From an uncultured bacterium (lineage in GTDB: Bacteria; Nitrospirota; Thermodesulfovibrionia; Thermodesulfovibrionales; Dissulfurispiraceae): DNA of 37,783 nucleotides. Shown here one piece after another: positions 16,478 through 32,058 of the stretch (position 1 is its first letter; each line of letters begins with the position of its first letter). Both the position numbers and the translations under genes were made by a program. The stretch covers positions 1-37,783 of the forward strand of contig CALGPO010000020.1 of assembly GCA_937960465.1 (NCBI GenBank). The letters run 5' to 3'. The notes beneath the pieces were generated by a model. It saw only the letters and a list, made by a program, of their open reading frames with translations, did no database searches and had not been told where the DNA came from.

Positions 16478-17662
16478 ATGCCAAAGAAGTATGAGACTCC
16501 CCTGTTGGACGAGCTGGAAAAAGGGCCATTCCCAAGCTTCGTAACCGAGATCAAAAAAGCAGCAGCAAAGAGTGATATGGCTGCTGACGAGCTTGGCCAG
16601 CTTGAGAAGTCATACAGGGACAAGCGTGGTTACTGGAAACACGGCGGCATTGTTGGTGTTCGCGGTTATGGGTCGGGCGTTATCGGGAGGTATTCATCCC
16701 TTCCTGATGAATTCCCAAATGTTGCAAACTTTCATACGGTGAGAATCAACTCCATCGCAGGATTTTTCTACACATCAAAGTTCCTTAAAGAGGCATGCGA
16801 TATCTGGGATAAATATGGAAGTGGTCTCACAAACCTTCACGGTTCTACCGGAGACCTTGTTCTTCTTGGAACAAATACCGAAAATCTCGAGCCTATTTTT
16901 GCTGAGTTCTCATCAAGAGGCTGGGACCTTGGAGGCTCTGGTTCTGCTATGAGAACACCGAGTTGCTGTGTTGGGCCGGCAAGATGCGAGTGGTCAAACA
17001 TCGATACCCTCGACATTACATACAGTATTACACAGGAGTGGCAGGACGAAATGCACAGGCCTGCATTCCCTTATAAATTCAAATTCAAGACAGCAGGATG
17101 CGCAGTCGACTGTATTGCATCAATTGCCCGTGCAGACTGCTCTATTATCGGCACATGGAAAGGCAATATAGCGGTTGATCAGACCGAGGTTGCCAACTAT
17201 GCAAAGAATGGCATGAACATTCAGGAAGAAATAGTGAATATGTGCCCCAGCAAGTGTATGAGCTATGACGGTAAAGAATTGAAGATAAACGATGCAGATT
17301 GTGTAAGGTGCATGCACTGTATTGCAAAGATGACAAAGGCATTAAAGCCGACCGGTGAGAAGGGCGCGACAATTCTCATCGGCAGCAAGGCGCCATTTGT
17401 TATCGGTGCAACACTTTCGTGGGTTATCGTTCCATTTATGAAGATGGAGCCGCCTTATGATGAATTCAAAGACCTTATCAGGAAGATGTGGGAATTCTGG
17501 GATGAGCACGGAAAGAATAGGGAAAGGATTGGCGAGCTTATCATCAGAAAGGGCATGAGGGAGTTTCTCGAGTATATCGGTGTTGAGCCCCAGGCTCAGC
17601 AGGTTAAAGAGCCGAGAAGAGACCCATTCTTCTTCTGGACAGAAGCAGATTTACAGAAATAA
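16478..17662 (+). CDS. dsrA: Dissimilatory sulfite reductase alpha subunit
   Basis: YWKHGGIVGVRGYGSGVIGRY, SAMRTPSCCVGPARCEW, KFKTAGCAVDCIASIARADCSIIGTWKG, CVRCMHCIAKM; RBS gaggagg. Confidence 0.98.
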   Translation: MPKKYETPLLDELEKGPFPSFVTEIKKAAAKSDMAADELGQLEKSYRDKRGYWKHGGIVGVRGYGSGVIGRYSSLPDEFPNVANFHTVRINSIAGFFYTSKFLKEACDIWDKYGSGLTNLHGSTGDLVLLGTNTENLEPIFAEFSSRGWDLGGSGSAMRTPSCCVGPARCEWSNIDTLDITYSITQEWQDEMHRPAFPYKFKFKTAGCAVDCIASIARADCSIIGTWKGNIAVDQTEVANYAKNGMNIQEEIVNMCPSKCMSYDGKELKINDADCVRCMHCIAKMTKALKPTGEKGATILIGSKAPFVIGATLSWVIVPFMKMEPPYDEFKDLIRKMWEFWDEHGKNRERIGELIIRKGMREFLEYIGVEPQAQQVKEPRRDPFFFWTEADLQK

Positions 17663-19707: not shown

Positions 19708-21093
19708 ATGAACAATTATCCAAGGCTGATCATTGCCGGAGTCAGAGGCGGCAGCGGAAAGACAACCCTCTCCCTCGGCATAATTGCTGCGTTAAGATCC
19801 AGGAAAGGTCTGAAGGTTATTCCATTTAAAAAAGGCCCTGATTTCATAGATGCAGGATGGATGTCTGTTGCTGCAAAGAACCCATGCTACAATCTCGACC
19901 CTTTTCTTATATCGAAGGAAAAGGTTTTAAATTCTTTTATTTTGCATTTTACAGGCGATATAGCGGTTATTGAGGGCAACAGGGGATTATATGATGGCAT
20001 GGATGCAGAAGGCTCATACAGCACTGCAGAACTGTCAAAGCTTTTAAAATCCCCTGTCATACTGATTGTTGACTGCACAAAGATGACGAGGACAGCAGCA
20101 GCCGTGGTATTGGGATGCATGAATCTCGACAGGGATGTCAACATAAAGGGTATCGTTTTAAATCAGGTGGCAGGAAGCCGTCATGAATCTGTGGTGCGTT
20201 CATCCATAGAAAAGTATTGCTCATTGCCTGTGCTCGGTGCAATACCGAGATTGAATTCAGGAGAGTTCCCAGAGCGCCATATGGGGTTGACACCGCACCA
20301 GGAGCATCATGACACAGGGAATGCACTCTCATTCGTAGAAGATATAGCAAATAAATATCTTGACCTTGACAGGATTTTGAGCATAGCAATGGAAGCAGAA
20401 CCGATAGATAACAGGCACGAGTTGCCTATGACCCATAGCCTATCGTTTGCTGTAAGGATCGGCGTAATAAGGGACGCTGCTTTCCAGTTTTATTATCCTG
20501 AAAATATCGAAGAGCTTGAAAAAAACGGTGCAGAGATTATTGAGGTAAACGCCCTTGAGGATGATCGCCTGCCGGATATTGATGCACTCTATATAGGAGG
20601 AGGTTTTCCCGAGACAAATGCCATAAGGCTTGCAGAAAATAAAGACTTCAGAAACTCTGTTCGAAATGCAGCGGATGAAGGACTCCCCATTTATGCTGAG
20701 TGTGGAGGACTCATGTTTTTAGGAGACTCCATTGTAGTTGGTGGTAAGAAATACCCTATGGCAGGTATTTTCCCAATAATCTTTGAGATGAAGGAAAAAC
20801 CACAAGCGCATGGCTACACAATCGTTGAAGTAGAAAAAGAGAACCCATTTTATCCAGTAGGAACAGTGCTGCACGGACATGAGTTTCATTATTCTGCTGT
20901 TGTTAGCATATCAGAAAACAGCAGTGCATTTACGGCATTTAAAATGAAGAGGGGGCATGGTATAAAGAATAAAATGGACGGGATATGTTATAAAAATGTA
21001 TTTGCAACTTATACCCATATACATGCTCTTGGTGCAACAGAATGGGTTAATGGACTTATAAATAAGGCAAAGGAGTTTAAGAGGGTAAAATGA
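19708..21093 (+). CDS. dsrN: DsrN: cobyrinic acid a,c-diamide synthase (CbiA/CobB)-like amidotransferase of the dsr locus
   Basis: IIAGVRGGSGKTTLSLGIIAAL, FKKGPDFIDAGWM, YIGGGFPETNA, YAECGGLMFLG; position in dsr locus. Confidence 0.92.
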   Translation: MNNYPRLIIAGVRGGSGKTTLSLGIIAALRSRKGLKVIPFKKGPDFIDAGWMSVAAKNPCYNLDPFLISKEKVLNSFILHFTGDIAVIEGNRGLYDGMDAEGSYSTAELSKLLKSPVILIVDCTKMTRTAAAVVLGCMNLDRDVNIKGIVLNQVAGSRHESVVRSSIEKYCSLPVLGAIPRLNSGEFPERHMGLTPHQEHHDTGNALSFVEDIANKYLDLDRILSIAMEAEPIDNRHELPMTHSLSFAVRIGVIRDAAFQFYYPENIEELEKNGAEIIEVNALEDDRLPDIDALYIGGGFPETNAIRLAENKDFRNSVRNAADEGLPIYAECGGLMFLGDSIVVGGKKYPMAGIFPIIFEMKEKPQAHGYTIVEVEKENPFYPVGTVLHGHEFHYSAVVSISENSSAFTAFKMKRGHGIKNKMDGICYKNVFATYTHIHALGATEWVNGLINKAKEFKRVK

Positions 21094-22127
21094 ATAAATA
21101 TCCGCCTGAATGTCCGTTTTGCGGACGGCATGTTGTTCGTCCCGAGACAACAATGACTGAATTCGGAGAGATTTTGAGCGGTAGATGCAACTGTGGTGCG
21201 GTCTATGTGTGCGATCCCACCGGGCATAATACAGGTGAGGCATACATGGAAGCCATGGTACTGGCAAAAGGAGACTGGGATATAGGCCTGATGGATGAAT
21301 ATATGGATTACCAGACCGAAGATATGGATTATGACTTGAAGAACCATATGAGGCTTTATTCAGCAGGCATGGGCGAGACGCGGGGAAAGCTTGTCTTTGT
21401 AAAACTCAAGGGGCCTGATGCACAGCAATCGCAACCTGTGGGGATAATATCTAAATCGGAACATAGAGGTAAAAAGGGTAATCTGAAGGAAAGGATTAAG
21501 GATGCCCTTAGCACCAGATCCTATGATGAGATTACAGATATGGCAAGGAGGGATAAAGGAGTGATACGGTATCTCATATCCCTCGCATACGATAAGGACG
21601 ATGTCATGGGCTGGAGGGCAATAGAGGCAATGGGATATGTAGCAGGCGAGTTGTCAAAACAAAGGGTCGATATTGTAAGAGATACCATAAGGAGACTTTT
21701 ATGGTCCATGGGAGAGGAGTCTGGAGGTATTGGATGGAGTGCTGCAGAGATGATTGGAGAGATCATCAGGAGCAATCCCGACCAATTTACCGACATTGTT
21801 CCAATTGTCTGGTCATTCCATGAAGAGGAGATGTTCAGGCCGGGAACAATCTGGGCCATGGGACGGATAGCTTCTGTGAGGCCTGATCTCGTGAAATTTA
21901 TACTAAAGGATATGCAGGACATGATAACAGACAAAAACCCTGCTGTCAGGGGATATGCTGCATGGGTTATTGGTATCCTAAGAGAGGATGGTTTCATGGA
22001 AGATATTAATAAACTTATATCCGATAACAGCACCGTGAATTTTTATCAGGAAGGCGAGCTGACAAAAAAGACGGTTGCCGAAATAGTTAAAGAAGCAATA
22101 GACAAGATAAAGATAACTCATAAATAG
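21090..22127 (+). CDS. HEAT-repeat protein with N-terminal zinc-ribbon-like CPFC...CNC motif, overlapping dsrN
   Basis: CPFCGRHVV...GRCNCGAVYVC; helical repeats (GWRAIEAMGYVAGEL, GWSAAEMIGEII, TIWAMGRIASVRPDLV, VRGYAAWVIGILRED). Confidence 0.8.
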   Translation: MNKYPPECPFCGRHVVRPETTMTEFGEILSGRCNCGAVYVCDPTGHNTGEAYMEAMVLAKGDWDIGLMDEYMDYQTEDMDYDLKNHMRLYSAGMGETRGKLVFVKLKGPDAQQSQPVGIISKSEHRGKKGNLKERIKDALSTRSYDEITDMARRDKGVIRYLISLAYDKDDVMGWRAIEAMGYVAGELSKQRVDIVRDTIRRLLWSMGEESGGIGWSAAEMIGEIIRSNPDQFTDIVPIVWSFHEEEMFRPGTIWAMGRIASVRPDLVKFILKDMQDMITDKNPAVRGYAAWVIGILREDGFMEDINKLISDNSTVNFYQEGELTKKTVAEIVKEAIDKIKITHK

Positions 22128-22747: not shown

Positions 22748-23338
22748 GTGTCATCTTTACAGAGTATCAGGAGTTTGAATGAACTCTTGTTAGAAAAGAA
22801 GCAGGCCATTTTAGAAAAATGGTTTGACTCGGTATTAGAGACGTATCCTCACGACTCTGCTAAATTCCTTAAGAGACAAAAAGACCAATTTGCCAACCCG
22901 GTAGGGAGCACCATTTACAGAGGGATGGGTTCTCTTTTAGATTTGATCGTAAACAGCGCCGATGCAGATAACATAACAAAATCCCTTGACGAGATTATAA
23001 GGATAAGGGCAATTCAGGATTTTACACCTTCACATGCCCTTGCCTTTGTTGTCGATCTCAAGAGGGTTGTCAGGGAAGAAATAAAAGGCGAGACCTGTGC
23101 ATCGCAATTAATCGATGAATTGCCGGAATTTGATCGCAGGGTAGATGGCCTTTTACTGCTGTCCTTCGACATATATATGAAATGCAGGGAAAAGATTTAC
23201 GAGCTTAAGGCCAATGAACTCAGGAACATGACGTCCAAGCTCGTGGAAAGGGCAAACCGTATATTCGAGGCAAAGTATCGCAATGTTGACCTTGAAGATA
23301 TAATTTCACAAGGCAATAAAACAGAAAGAGGTGAGTAG
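22748..23338 (+). CDS. RsbRD N-terminal domain-like protein (GTG start)
   Basis: KKQAILEKWFDSVLETYP...FANPVGSTIYRGMGSLLDLI...IRIRAIQDFTPSHALAFVVDLKRVVREE pattern of RsbRD_N proteins next to dsrM. Confidence 0.75.
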   Translation: MSSLQSIRSLNELLLEKKQAILEKWFDSVLETYPHDSAKFLKRQKDQFANPVGSTIYRGMGSLLDLIVNSADADNITKSLDEIIRIRAIQDFTPSHALAFVVDLKRVVREEIKGETCASQLIDELPEFDRRVDGLLLLSFDIYMKCREKIYELKANELRNMTSKLVERANRIFEAKYRNVDLEDIISQGNKTERGE

Positions 23339-28739: not shown

Positions 28740-28991
28740 TTAGCTTTTCTTGATGTAAAGCTCCCAATAACCCTTGTCCTCAAGCTTTACGGATTCAAAC
28801 TCATAACCCTGTTTTTCTGCATACCGTGGAATTGAATCCTCTGCAGATGCAGGAGCGTCACATATTATCTTGAGAACCCCCCCACTTGGCATTTTCTCCA
28901 GTGCTTTTTTGGTTAGGACCAAGGGGTAAGGACATACCCTTCCCAATACATCAAGGGTTTCTGCTACTGGTTGCGACTTCAAATCTGCCAT
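28740..28991 (-). CDS. tusA: TusA-family sulfur carrier protein
   Basis: TLDVLGRVCPYPLVLTKKALEKMPSGGVLKIICDAPAS (CPxP motif). Confidence 0.93.
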   Translation of the reverse strand: MADLKSQPVAETLDVLGRVCPYPLVLTKKALEKMPSGGVLKIICDAPASAEDSIPRYAEKQGYEFESVKLEDKGYWELYIKKS

Positions 28992-29009
28992 TTTTACATC
29001 CTCCTTATT

Positions 29010-29432
29010 TTAAAAGAATTGCAGATGGTCAACTTCTTCCATCACTTTTTGAATTTCGCTGTACGGAACCAACTGCGCTTTTGTCTCTCCGCCGACGTCT
29101 TCTGCGTCCATGATCAGATGATCCTCTTTGAGGCCAAACCTGTCAACATCCTCTTTGCATATCATGACCTTCAGGTCAAGAAGCAGACTGTTCTTCATAT
29201 GTTGTTCAAGGCTTGTGATACCGTAATGCTTCATTGCCTGCTGGCTCTTAAGGCAGTTGAGCACCCCATCTCCGATAAAGCATACTACTGGTTCAATATT
29301 GTCTCCTTCCTCTAAATATATCTCAACTGTCTGGCTTGCTATTGCATGTGTGAGTGCAAGCCTTGATGCCTCAGTTTTATATGGAAGCGACCTTATTATA
29401 AATGCGAGTTTTTTAGTAGCCATATTAATCAC
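29010..29432 (-). CDS. dsrF: DsrF/TusC-like protein
   Basis: DGVLNCLKSQQAM...LKVMICKEDVDRFGL...VDHLQFF resembles TusC/DsrF; the 4th-residue Met (MATKKLAF) may be the true start. Confidence 0.65.
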   Translation of the reverse strand: MINMATKKLAFIIRSLPYKTEASRLALTHAIASQTVEIYLEEGDNIEPVVCFIGDGVLNCLKSQQAMKHYGITSLEQHMKNSLLLDLKVMICKEDVDRFGLKEDHLIMDAEDVGGETKAQLVPYSEIQKVMEEVDHLQFF

Positions 29433-29787
29433 CTCCTATGAGAAGTACTCTGTCTGCGCTGAAGGTGCTTGCTAAATACCAGTCCATGCTGCGCCTTCCC
29501 CAGCCTTCCATTGTGTCATCCTTATGATAGCCCCTCGCCTCGGCACATGCCTCGCAGACTACTGCTTTGAATTTACCTGTTGCGAAGAGTTCTGTGAGTG
29601 TTTTTGCAAGGTGTGAATAATCCTTGAATGCCTTTTGTCCCTTTTTTGAAAGCATTGTTGCATTGCTTGATACCCAAAAGTCTACCTCGTGTCCCTTCTT
29701 TACAGCAGCTTCTGCGAGCTTAACTCCAAAGTCGAGGGATACGGAGCCGACCAGTGATGAAAAACAGCCTATAGTCAATTTGCCCAT
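29425..29787 (-). CDS. dsrE: DsrE/TusD-like protein
   Basis: FKAVVCEACAEARG...LASTFSADRVLLIG resembles the TusD/DsrE active-site region. Confidence 0.7.
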   Translation of the reverse strand: MGKLTIGCFSSLVGSVSLDFGVKLAEAAVKKGHEVDFWVSSNATMLSKKGQKAFKDYSHLAKTLTELFATGKFKAVVCEACAEARGYHKDDTMEGWGRRSMDWYLASTFSADRVLLIGGD

Positions 29788-29800
29788 AATTGCCTCCTTT

Positions 29801-30097
29801 CTATATCCATATTATTTTTTCATAGTCATTGAAAATAAGGTCAACCACATCGCTGTAAGTGACAGGCTTTACGCGGCTGTCCACATCGGCAGAGCTGAAA
29901 CCCCTGCTTTCGAGGTCTTCTGACAGCACATAGAAATTTGCTGATTTGTCTAGCAGAGGTGAAGACTTTCCATTTTCTTTTGTTGTTGCGTGATAAATGC
30001 CGTTGCCTACGAGGATGATGCCGAGTTTCTCTGCACTCAACCTGTTGAGGACATCGGAACCGCCTCTGAAATCGCTCATAAAAACGCCAAGCTTCAT
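29801..30097 (-). CDS. dsrH: DsrH/TusB-like protein
   Basis: YVLSEDLESRGFSSADVDSRVKPVTYSDVVDLIFNDYEKIIWI matches the TusB/DsrH C-terminal pattern. Confidence 0.75.
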   Translation of the reverse strand: MKLGVFMSDFRGGSDVLNRLSAEKLGIILVGNGIYHATTKENGKSSPLLDKSANFYVLSEDLESRGFSSADVDSRVKPVTYSDVVDLIFNDYEKIIWI

Positions 30098-30184: not shown

Positions 30185-30214
30185 TTTATACCAGTTATAG
30201 GCTATACTTGTCAA
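30185..30214 (-). promoter_or_regulatory. Candidate sigma70-like promoter for the dsrH-E-F-tusA operon (TTGACA-N18-TATAAA on the minus strand)
   Basis: ttgacaagtatagcctataactggtataaag, located between the thiC-like gene and dsrH. Confidence 0.65.
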
Positions 30215-30274: not shown

Positions 30275-30718
30275 TTAGCACTTCCCTCCGTTTCTTATCT
30301 CATCATCAAACATACCCTTCAAAATCCTCGATGCGCAGAACTGTCCGCACATGGTGCATGAGTCTTCGGCTGATGGCTGCCTTTCGCTTCTTATCCTCAC
30401 TGCCTCATCCTTTGCAATTGCCAATTCAAACTGCTTATGCCAGTCAAGGTCTCTTCTTGCAATGGACATCTCCTTGTCCCTGTCTCGCCTTTTCAACTTC
30501 ACCATATCACCGATGTATGCTGCAATCCTTGCTGTAATAACTCCCTGCTTAACATCTTCAGGAAATGGCAGGCCTAAATGCTCGACTGGAGTCACATAGC
30601 AGATGAAATCAGCGCCATAGGCAGATGAGAGCGCAGCACCGATGGCTGATGTTATGTGGTCATATCCGGGTGCGATGTCTGTTGTTATTCCTCTCTTTGC
30701 CCTTTCAAGCTGTGTCAT
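30275..30718 (-). pseudogene. Internally deleted thiC/bzaF-like gene: N-terminal MTQLERAKRGI joined in frame to the C-terminal domain TTDIAPGYDHITSAIG...CTMCGQFC
   Basis: 147 aa vs ~430 aa canonical ThiC family; first ~11 residues match the canonical N-terminus, the rest matches the C-terminal third including the cysteine cluster motif. Confidence 0.75.
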
Positions 30719-30726
30719 TGCGCCTC

Positions 30727-32058
30727 CTATGTTCTTAATAGCATATATAAAATTCTGTCTATTTCGTCTATGAGCTTCTTAAATAACCCTCCATAACTCT
30801 TTGAATTTCCAAAAAGCTCTGTCCGCATTTCCTGTATTTTTGGGTCATCACATTTTTCGTATGTTATATGCCCATTTTGCATGGCATATCTTTCTAAAAT
30901 CAAAAGCTGTTTAGCTTTTTCCGTAAATGGCATTAACAAATTTTTTATTTTATTTAAATCTGACTGCTGACTGCTAACTTCTGATTGCTGTTTTTTAATT
31001 ATTTCCGCAATTTCCTTTATCATCACATAAAGCGTGCAGTATTCGAGCCCTCTTACTCCCCTACGCCACTGCAAAAACATGGGATTCCTCCAGAACCAGA
31101 GGAAGTTGCGAATGCCGAGATTGATCAGGTCATCGACTGCAGCCTCAATATCAGTGCAGCAGTGCAGCAGCGCAGTAGAGCAGTAGTTTTCATGAGGAAT
31201 AATTTTTCCCTTAATATCTTGTTGTTCTGCTGTTCTGTTGCTCTGCTCTGCGAGATATTCCCAGAGATTTTTTAAAACTTTTGCGCCGTTTTCATCTTCA
31301 GGGGTATCAAAATGTATTAATGATAAAATTACTTTGCCTTTTCCAAAATTTCCTTCCACCACTGAAGGCGCATCTTTTAATCTCCGGGGATTCAGATTGA
31401 TTTTATAAATATCTTCCAATTCTGACCAGCCGCCATTGGCCTCAACATCTCCCACATTCAAATCCGAACTGAATGAATCTGGGAGTGCATCTCCATAAGT
31501 AGCGAGTATTTTTATGGTCTTATCATCAACCAAGAATTGTGAAGGCCACCATGCATAAAAGATTGGTGAAGGGGTGAATGGGTGAATGGGTGAATAGGTG
31601 AATGGGTGAATGGGTGAATGGGTGAATGGGTGAATGGGTGAAGGGGTGAAGGGGTGAAGGGGTGAAGGGGTGAAAATAGCATGCTCTGAAATATTTAATT
31701 GTATCCGGCCGCTGAAGCTTGGCACCCTCTGCTTTGTGGGCATCCTCTTTATATTTAAAAGCCCTATGCCATCAAGTGTTGCAAGACCTGCACCTCCGCA
31801 GAAACCCAAATAATTACCACCTTTATTCACAAATTTCTTTATTTCACTGATGCCCTCTTCACCGAGGGCTTTTATCTTATTCGATGCCCACCCGCCTGGC
31901 ACAAAGAGCATCCTGTAATTTTTTAATTCTCCATTCTTTATATTATCCGAACGGATAAGTTCAAAAGAAAGATTGCATGCCTTCAGAGCCTTGTATGCCA
32001 TCAATCCCCAGAGAAAAGACTCATCCCAGAGGAAGGCAACTTTATTTTTTGTTTTCAT
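30727..32058 (-). CDS. BPL_N / class I glutamine amidotransferase-like protein carrying three repeat-derived insertions
   Basis: KVAFLWDESFLWGLMAYKALKACN...MLFVPGGWASNKIKALGEEGISEIKKFVNKGGNYLGFCGGAGLA. Confidence 0.72.
   Translation of the reverse strand: MKTKNKVAFLWDESFLWGLMAYKALKACNLSFELIRSDNIKNGELKNYRMLFVPGGWASNKIKALGEEGISEIKKFVNKGGNYLGFCGGAGLATLDGIGLLNIKRMPTKQRVPSFSGRIQLNISEHAIFTPSPLHPFTPSPIHPFTHSPIHPFTYSPIHPFTPSPIFYAWWPSQFLVDDKTIKILATYGDALPDSFSSDLNVGDVEANGGWSELEDIYKINLNPRRLKDAPSVVEGNFGKGKVILSLIHFDTPEDENGAKVLKNLWEYLAEQSNRTAEQQDIKGKIIPHENYCSTALLHCCTDIEAAVDDLINLGIRNFLWFWRNPMFLQWRRGVRGLEYCTLYVMIKEIAEIIKKQQSEVSSQQSDLNKIKNLLMPFTEKAKQLLILERYAMQNGHITYEKCDDPKIQEMRTELFGNSKSYGGLFKKLIDEIDRILYMLLRT
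30959..30996. repeat. Heptamer (CTGACTG/CTTCTGA-type) tract inside the BPL_N-like gene
   Basis: ctgactg ctgactg ctaactt ctgattg ctgtttt; encodes KKQQSEVSSQQSD. Confidence 0.75.
31152..31252. repeat. AGCAGTAG-type octamer tract with opposing arm and loop similar to that of 12617-12706, inside the BPL_N-like gene
   Basis: cagtgcagcagtgcagcagcgcagtagagcagtag-ttttcatgaggaataattttt-...-gttctgctgttctgttgctctgctctgc. Confidence 0.75.
31564..31674. repeat. GGTGAATG octamer array, ~13-14 units, inside the BPL_N-like gene
   Basis: gggtgaat repeated with rare variants, ending in gggtgaag x4; encodes SPIHPFTHSPIHPFT... on the minus strand. Confidence 0.95.

Follow-up and report, generated by a model that had tools for sequence, protein, structure and literature searches.

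What does a DsrEFH-TusA sulfur relay do beside a dsr locus that carries dsrD? The window, that is, the whole stretch of DNA analyzed (37,783 bp), is identical to contig C20 of a MAG of 1.92 Mb in 155 contigs, 98.7% complete, and between positions 28740 and 30097 it contains a compact minus-strand dsrH-dsrE-dsrF-tusA operon, convergent to a dsr locus of reductive type (Table 1). An earlier note, made from the sequence, had placed a four-gene operon here in this orientation, as the gene positions bear out, and had regarded its dsrEFH as an oxidative marker clashing with dsrD. The latter view does not stand, since type II DsrEFH is found mostly with reductive dsrAB (PMC13293266), and the window dsrEFH is not a marker of the oxidative pathway. 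This has wider consequences, as dsrEFH and dsrD are still used for calling sulfur oxidizers versus sulfate reducers; the present locus and its conservation across Nitrospirota show that for an entire class such a call does not hold.

Table 1. Features of the window and of the second triad on contig C128, with the evidence for each
Feature	Contig	Position	Strand	Evidence
dsrA, predicted reductive type	C20 (window)	16478..17662	+	TIGR02064 530 bits; tree; PDB matches are sulfite reducers
dsrB	C20	17699..18769	+	TIGR02066 485 bits
dsrD	C20	18860..19075	+	PF08679 E 1.7e-4, 22.2 bits, below 24.2 cut-off; conserved in relatives' dsr loci
dsrC	C20	22281..22616	+	TIGR03342 163.6 bits; both C-terminal cysteines kept (CRYAGLPKPTGCV)
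dsrMKJOP	C20	23339..28334	+	DsrM, DsrK and DsrO by domains; DsrJ and DsrP from their position and from synteny
2x[4Fe-4S] ferredoxin	C20	28496..28681	+	domain match; last gene of the dsr locus
bidirectional intrinsic terminator	C20	28692..28730	.	between ferredoxin and tusA
tusA	C20	28740..28991	-	83 aa, CPYP motif; PF01206 E 3.3e-23
dsrF (putative type II)	C20	29010..29423	-	137 aa from ATG; PF02635 E 4e-11; best NCBIfam TIGR03010 (TusC/DsrF) E 1.3e-8
dsrE (putative type II)	C20	29425..29787	-	120 aa; PF02635 E 2.4e-8; active site C78-E-A-C81
dsrH (putative type II)	C20	29801..30097	-	98 aa, no cysteine; PF04077 E 1.6e-11; TIGR03011 48.1 bits (cut-off 49.2)
inverted repeat AGTCTGGCATGCAGACT	C20	30126..30142	.	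dsrH leader; terminator scan; palindrome conserved in 5 genomes
promoter (predicted)	C20	30185..30214	-	-35 TTGACA 30209-30214, 18-nt spacer, -10 TATAAA 30185-30190
dsrE	C128	557-901		TGA is codon 73, in DIUTGCMQLRG
dsrF	C128	910-1263		
dsrH	C128	1274-1555		
SQR	C128	1558-2745		followed by MMPL gene

The proposal that the four small genes encode DsrH, DsrE, DsrF and a TusA-like protein is supported by HMM matches for all of them, and the DsrE and DsrF models resemble subunits of DsrEFH in fold. A profile search of the PDB with DsrH returned A. vinosum DsrH (2HY5_C, at 1e-6) and also E. coli TusB (2D1P_C), and the equivalent of A. vinosum Cys20 is absent from the window protein. The DsrE profile had YchN as a match and A. 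vinosum DsrE as a weak one, the latter with C78 aligned on Cys78; C78 and C81 are invariant in the 22 orthologues compared, and the AlphaFold model (pLDDT 89.9) has A. vinosum DsrE (2HY5_A, TM 0.82) as its second-ranked structural match after YchN. Since the sequence profile of DsrF found no match in the PDB, a fold comparison was used for this subunit, and its AlphaFold model (pLDDT 85.1) gave A. vinosum DsrF (2HY5_B, TM 0.72) as the top PDB match. E. coli TusBCD was also among the structural matches of the DsrE and DsrF models.

Each of the four genes has a strong ribosome-binding site, and the intergenic gaps do not exceed 18 nt. For dsrF, the ribosome-binding site makes the ATG at 29423, preceded by AGGAGGTG, the most likely translation start, in place of the GTG at 29432. 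The candidate promoter put forward previously is backed by conservation of TTGACA-18-TATAAA in the five genomes compared, in which the surrounding intergenic stretch has diverged; a strict consensus promoter scan did not pick it up. The palindrome in the dsrH leader is possibly an operator or an RNA hairpin. At the opposite end, the bidirectional terminator suspected between the two transcription units folds strongly on both strands (-27.4 and -29.9 kcal/mol; z -6.0 and -6.7), and no shuffled sequence was equally good.

In the facing locus the order of genes on the plus strand is dsrA, dsrB, dsrD, dsrN, a HEAT-repeat gene, dsrC, an RsbRD_N gene, dsrMKJOP and ferredoxin; domain and HMM matches together with synteny agree with the neighbors originally named (dsrAB, dsrD, dsrN, dsrC, dsrMKJOP and ferredoxin), dsrD lying just below its cut-off. 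The HEAT-repeat protein (21090-22127) and the RsbRD_N protein (22748-23338) are also retained by relatives in their dsr loci, and the gene of the latter occupies the place expected for dsrT. In the DsrA tree, a check which the earlier note had suggested, the window protein falls with the reductive clade of Nitrospirota, which includes Thermodesulfovibrio MAGs, and a 100/98 branch parts it from phage rdsrA and from the locus L033 (RBG_19FT_COMBO_42_15), whose family, 9FT-COMBO-42-15, has been called oxidative (PMC11033732). With oxidative references few and on long branches, this tree offers good, if not final, grounds for considering the window DsrAB as reductive type.

The genome-wide search for sat, aprAB and qmoABC, likewise suggested, was positive: sat, aprB, aprA and qmoC are clearly present, and qmoA and qmoB are probably present too, to judge from HdrA-like matches in gene order. 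The domain search, for those window genes that it covered, showed no dsrL. A YedE-like gene, believed to be absent, is indeed missing from the window; the sole YeeE/YedE gene of the genome lies on contig C111, so transport is not lacking. At this locus (L093, 7026-9518) a YeeE/YedE transporter, a second TusA and a universal stress protein are encoded side by side, the transporter being related to TsuA/YedE-FdhT models with scores below the cut-offs; both the transporter and its TusA could serve the window relay. Another locus (L096, contig C60, 8753-9373) encodes YedF, a TusA-DsrE fusion linked to selenium metabolism, at 200 bits against a cut-off of 110.

The nearest dsr loci, L011 and L012, belong to Thermodesulfovibrionales/Nitrospirota MAGs and share 91-92% identity in DsrK and 96-98% in DsrA with the window. 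Among 80 DsrK-anchored loci, many of them too short for judging the absence of dsrHEF, the convergent tusA-F-E-H block recurs as in the window in 22, dsrH-E-F lies within a dsrD-bearing dsr operon in eight, between dsrC(-ferredoxin) and an rsbRD-like gene or dsrM, and dsrHEF is co-directional behind ferredoxin in two. Seven of the eight loci with dsrH-E-F inside the dsr operon (L039, L047, L054, L058, L062, L066, L067 and L089) have their DsrA in the tree, and these seven form one clade. A close homologue of the window DsrE (E <= 1e-10) is present in 143 of the 396 Nitrospirota genomes sampled, namely in 131 of the 177 that bear dsrA and in 12 of the 219 others, an association strongly confounded by phylogeny (the 177 follow from the E-value reading, the tool's cut-off giving 173, and the 131 carriers have full-length dsrA). 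In the single-genus family f5/g17 of the sampled phylum, dsrA is present and the operon largely absent.

The type II complex of DsrEFH was resolved in papers of 2026. Plum-Jensen et al. 2026 described this type from 985 genomes, of which 73.9% have reductive dsrAB; its subtype 1 is mostly found in Nitrospirota (PMC13293266). The window operon fits type II by its low identity to type I, the synteny with tusA, the reductive dsrAB and the host phylum, and it is probably of subtype 1, considering the host and the published description; it is a new example of a relay which is itself already known. As in the type II of cable bacteria (formerly the YTD cluster), dsrE/F/H are syntenic with tusA with reductive dsrAB alongside, the active cysteine of DsrE aligns with A. 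vinosum Cys78 (Cys67 of E. aureum), identity to type I is below 25% and the phylum, Nitrospirota, is that of subtype 1 hosts; the DsrH of a cable bacterium also lacks Cys20 (PMC13047784). In contrast to that system, the window operon faces the dsr operon and its DsrE has an invariant CxxC, and, whereas type II clusters usually have yeeE adjacent, here it lies on C111. The YTD arrangement yedE-tusA-dsrE was not encountered, the window having tusA-dsrFEH, and YeeE/YedE on C111 accompanying another tusA. With type I of A. vinosum (2HY5) the window system would share the subunit folds, the active-site cysteine and the relay to DsrC, but the identity in fold alignments is 19% for DsrE and 18% for DsrF, under the 30% limit for type II, the window DsrH lacks Cys20 and the partner DsrAB is of reductive type.

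The presence of dsrD together with dsrEFH in Nitrospirota had been noted before (PMC11406059). One study reported that canonical sulfate reducers nearly all lack DsrEFH (PMC10591310), and another that dsrFH, with neither dsrE nor dsrD, is what most Thermodesulfovibrionia with reductive dsrAB have (PMC11033732). In this genome DsrE reaches 21 bits where the TIGR03012 cut-off is 89, and DsrD 22.2 where it is 24.2, scores which explain the earlier misses here; sub-cut-off dsrE and dsrD, along with a second dsrE split by a UGA which gene callers read as stop, may explain the puzzle of the latter report.

We hold it probable that the operon encodes a type II sulfurtransferase and a TusA which feed sulfane sulfur to DsrC, for oxidation or for the oxidative half of disproportionation. 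TusA would receive sulfane sulfur in the cytoplasm and pass it to Cys78 of DsrE, within a DsrE-F-H heterotrimer, and DsrE would in turn pass it to DsrC, the presumed acceptor, encoded in the facing operon; loaded DsrC would then go to reductive-type DsrAB and DsrMKJOP acting in the oxidative direction. The net use would be either to oxidize sulfur or to carry out the oxidative half of S0/thiosulfate disproportionation, and the host also has the full sulfate-reduction set. What the analysis shows directly is the identity of the genes, the fold and catalytic residues of their products, the structure of the operon, its conservation and its linkage to dsr. Sulfur transfer by the window proteins, as well as its net direction in the cell, we infer; in vitro, the type II complex of a cable bacterium transfers sulfur between TusA and DsrE in both directions and from DsrE to DsrC, the step from DsrEFH to DsrC being one-way (PMC13293266). 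The two C-terminal cysteines of DsrC count in favor of such a relay, while the lack of an adjacent yeeE, a DsrH without the cysteine important in A. vinosum and the occurrence of type II DsrEFH in only ~40% of known disproportionators (PMC13293266) count against it.

The one-way transfer also bears on the rather unlikely possibility that the relay works with sulfite reduction, removing persulfide from DsrC or buffering sulfane sulfur during sulfate reduction. Such a role would suit a genome which has dsrD, a DsrAB of reductive type and all of sat-apr-qmo, but the direction of the DsrEFH to DsrC step observed in vitro (PMC13293266) speaks against it, and so does the family f5/g17, which has dsrA mostly without the operon and so indicates that sulfite reduction does not need it.

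The best NCBIfam names (TusC, TusD and TusB), the structural matches to E. coli TusBCD (2D1P) and the common fold and subunit make-up could be taken as signs of a biosynthetic TusABCD(E) relay for 2-thiouridine in tRNA, located beside dsr by chance. However, every score is below the Tus equivalog cut-off (48.1 against 49.2, 34.8 against 94.15 and 21.1 against 89.25 bits for TusB, TusC and TusD, respectively), and the genes are linked to dsr and not to tRNA thiolation, as 131 of the 143 DsrE carriers have dsrA and in eight genomes the genes lie within the dsr operon. TusE has one redox cysteine, versus two in DsrC, and the adjoining DsrC has both, all of which makes a thiolation relay very improbable. 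An assembly chimera, in which an oxidative-type operon was misjoined to a reductive locus, might be suspected in a MAG of so many contigs, but its probability is negligible and it was ruled out by synteny across relatives, which keep the operon (22 loci with equal layout) and in which the junction recurs in many independent MAGs, for instance in L011 and L012 with equal dsr genes and thiC/cbiG flanks.

Besides the window operon, whose probable role is the feeding of sulfur to DsrC, the genome search for DsrE led to contig C128 and to a DsrE reading frame with one in-frame TGA. This locus (L095, 62-5108) comprises a dsrE-F-H triad behind an ArsR/BigR-like regulator, then SQR and MMPL, and is conserved across Nitrospirota. 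The regulator is ArsR-type with a sub-threshold BigR match; the SQR resembles Aquifex SQR (1.6e-100), keeps VSCFGPAYE and the later cysteine, and has as its nearest NCBIfam model, below cut-off, the selenoprotein subtype of type III SQR. In the hhalign alignment the TGA codon coincides with C78 of the window DsrE, giving U-x-x-C, and the sulfur-carrying cysteine of the C128 DsrE appears to be replaced by selenocysteine (Sec). Designed PPR proteins among the PDB profile matches of Sec-DsrE were discarded as repeat artefacts.

A dsrE homologue with an in-frame TGA at the active-site position occurs in 91 of the 396 genomes, and in 44 of 50 retrieved loci TGA is the codon at that position. The TGA-dsrE is followed by dsrF in 29 of 30 close loci and 17 of 17 wider loci; dsrH completes the triad in 27 and 17 of these, respectively, two of the three misses being at contig ends, and SQR is near in 17 of the close loci, which span only ~3.3 kb each, and in 15 of the wider ones. 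The Cys relay is also held by 81 of the 91 Sec genomes, and full dsrA by 81. A plasmid search found no Sec-DsrE on plasmids.

Several observations suggest that the UGA is decoded. The rates at the three codon positions are 0.19/0.10/0.50 downstream of the TGA and 0.20/0.12/0.61 upstream, and this equality on either side points to equal protein-level selection on the downstream part. A SECIS-like 4-bp stem with a six-base loop of the xGUxxx type lies at +20 to +33; 40 of 43 TGA genes have it complete, with compensatory changes, it is the best of 158 registers, and none of four Cys orthologues has it; single-sequence folding of the C128 SECIS region was no better than shuffles. Cys versions in four genomes (G012, G021, G030 and G045; loci L156, L153, L149 and L155) keep the E-F-H-SQR order without the stem, and, going by these sequences, represent a natural Sec/Cys swap. 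Relatives of family f23 have Cys versions of the complex. In the genome selB is present (397 bits), and a search for tRNA-Sec in this MAG found none. An RF01852 (Rfam) match was rejected as tRNA-Sec, as ARAGORN calls it tRNA-Ser. Two genomes of the same genus, one of them a single contig, and two others of the order do have tRNA-Sec; in the single-contig relative it lies 640 bp from tRNA-Ser, and in this MAG contig C14 stops 492 bp from the matching tRNA-Ser, so close that tRNA-Sec was likely lost from the MAG at the contig end.

Papers of 2005-2006 (PMC1088965, PMC1794560) reported Sec 'DsrE-like' proteins with UxxC, and a list of 2026 includes them (PMC13188914), with no function given, and the paper on type II DsrEFH makes no mention of selenium (PMC13293266). 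Like the members of this 'DsrE-like' selenoprotein family (PF02635), the C128 dsrE has an in-frame UGA giving U-x-x-C and a SECIS-like stem; unlike them, it belongs, as subunit E, to a conserved E-F-H triad which mostly has SQR next to it. In the literature searched we found no description of a Sec-DsrEFH triad linked to SQR, an absence which is no proof of novelty. In our opinion, Nitrospirota capable of sulfate reduction are likely to run two relays, a Cys type II relay at dsr and a Sec-DsrEFH with SQR, usually with an ArsR/BigR-like regulator, in which Sec would replace the sulfur-carrying cysteine and take the sulfane sulfur of SQR. If so, this sulfur relay would depend on selenium and would have escaped notice through annotation ending the gene at the UGA, and the naturally swapped Sec and Cys versions of one complex would make relay-cysteine chemistry testable.

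Beyond the window operon, thiC (30275-30718) is only 147 aa long, its first ~13 residues being fused in frame to the C-terminal third, and the thiC at the equivalent place in relatives L011 and L012 is 436 aa long; the short form may be either a real deletion or an assembly collapse. The adjoining ORF (30727-32058) contains in its translation a proline/histidine-rich tandem repeat (SPIHPFTHSPIHPFTYSPIHPFT...).
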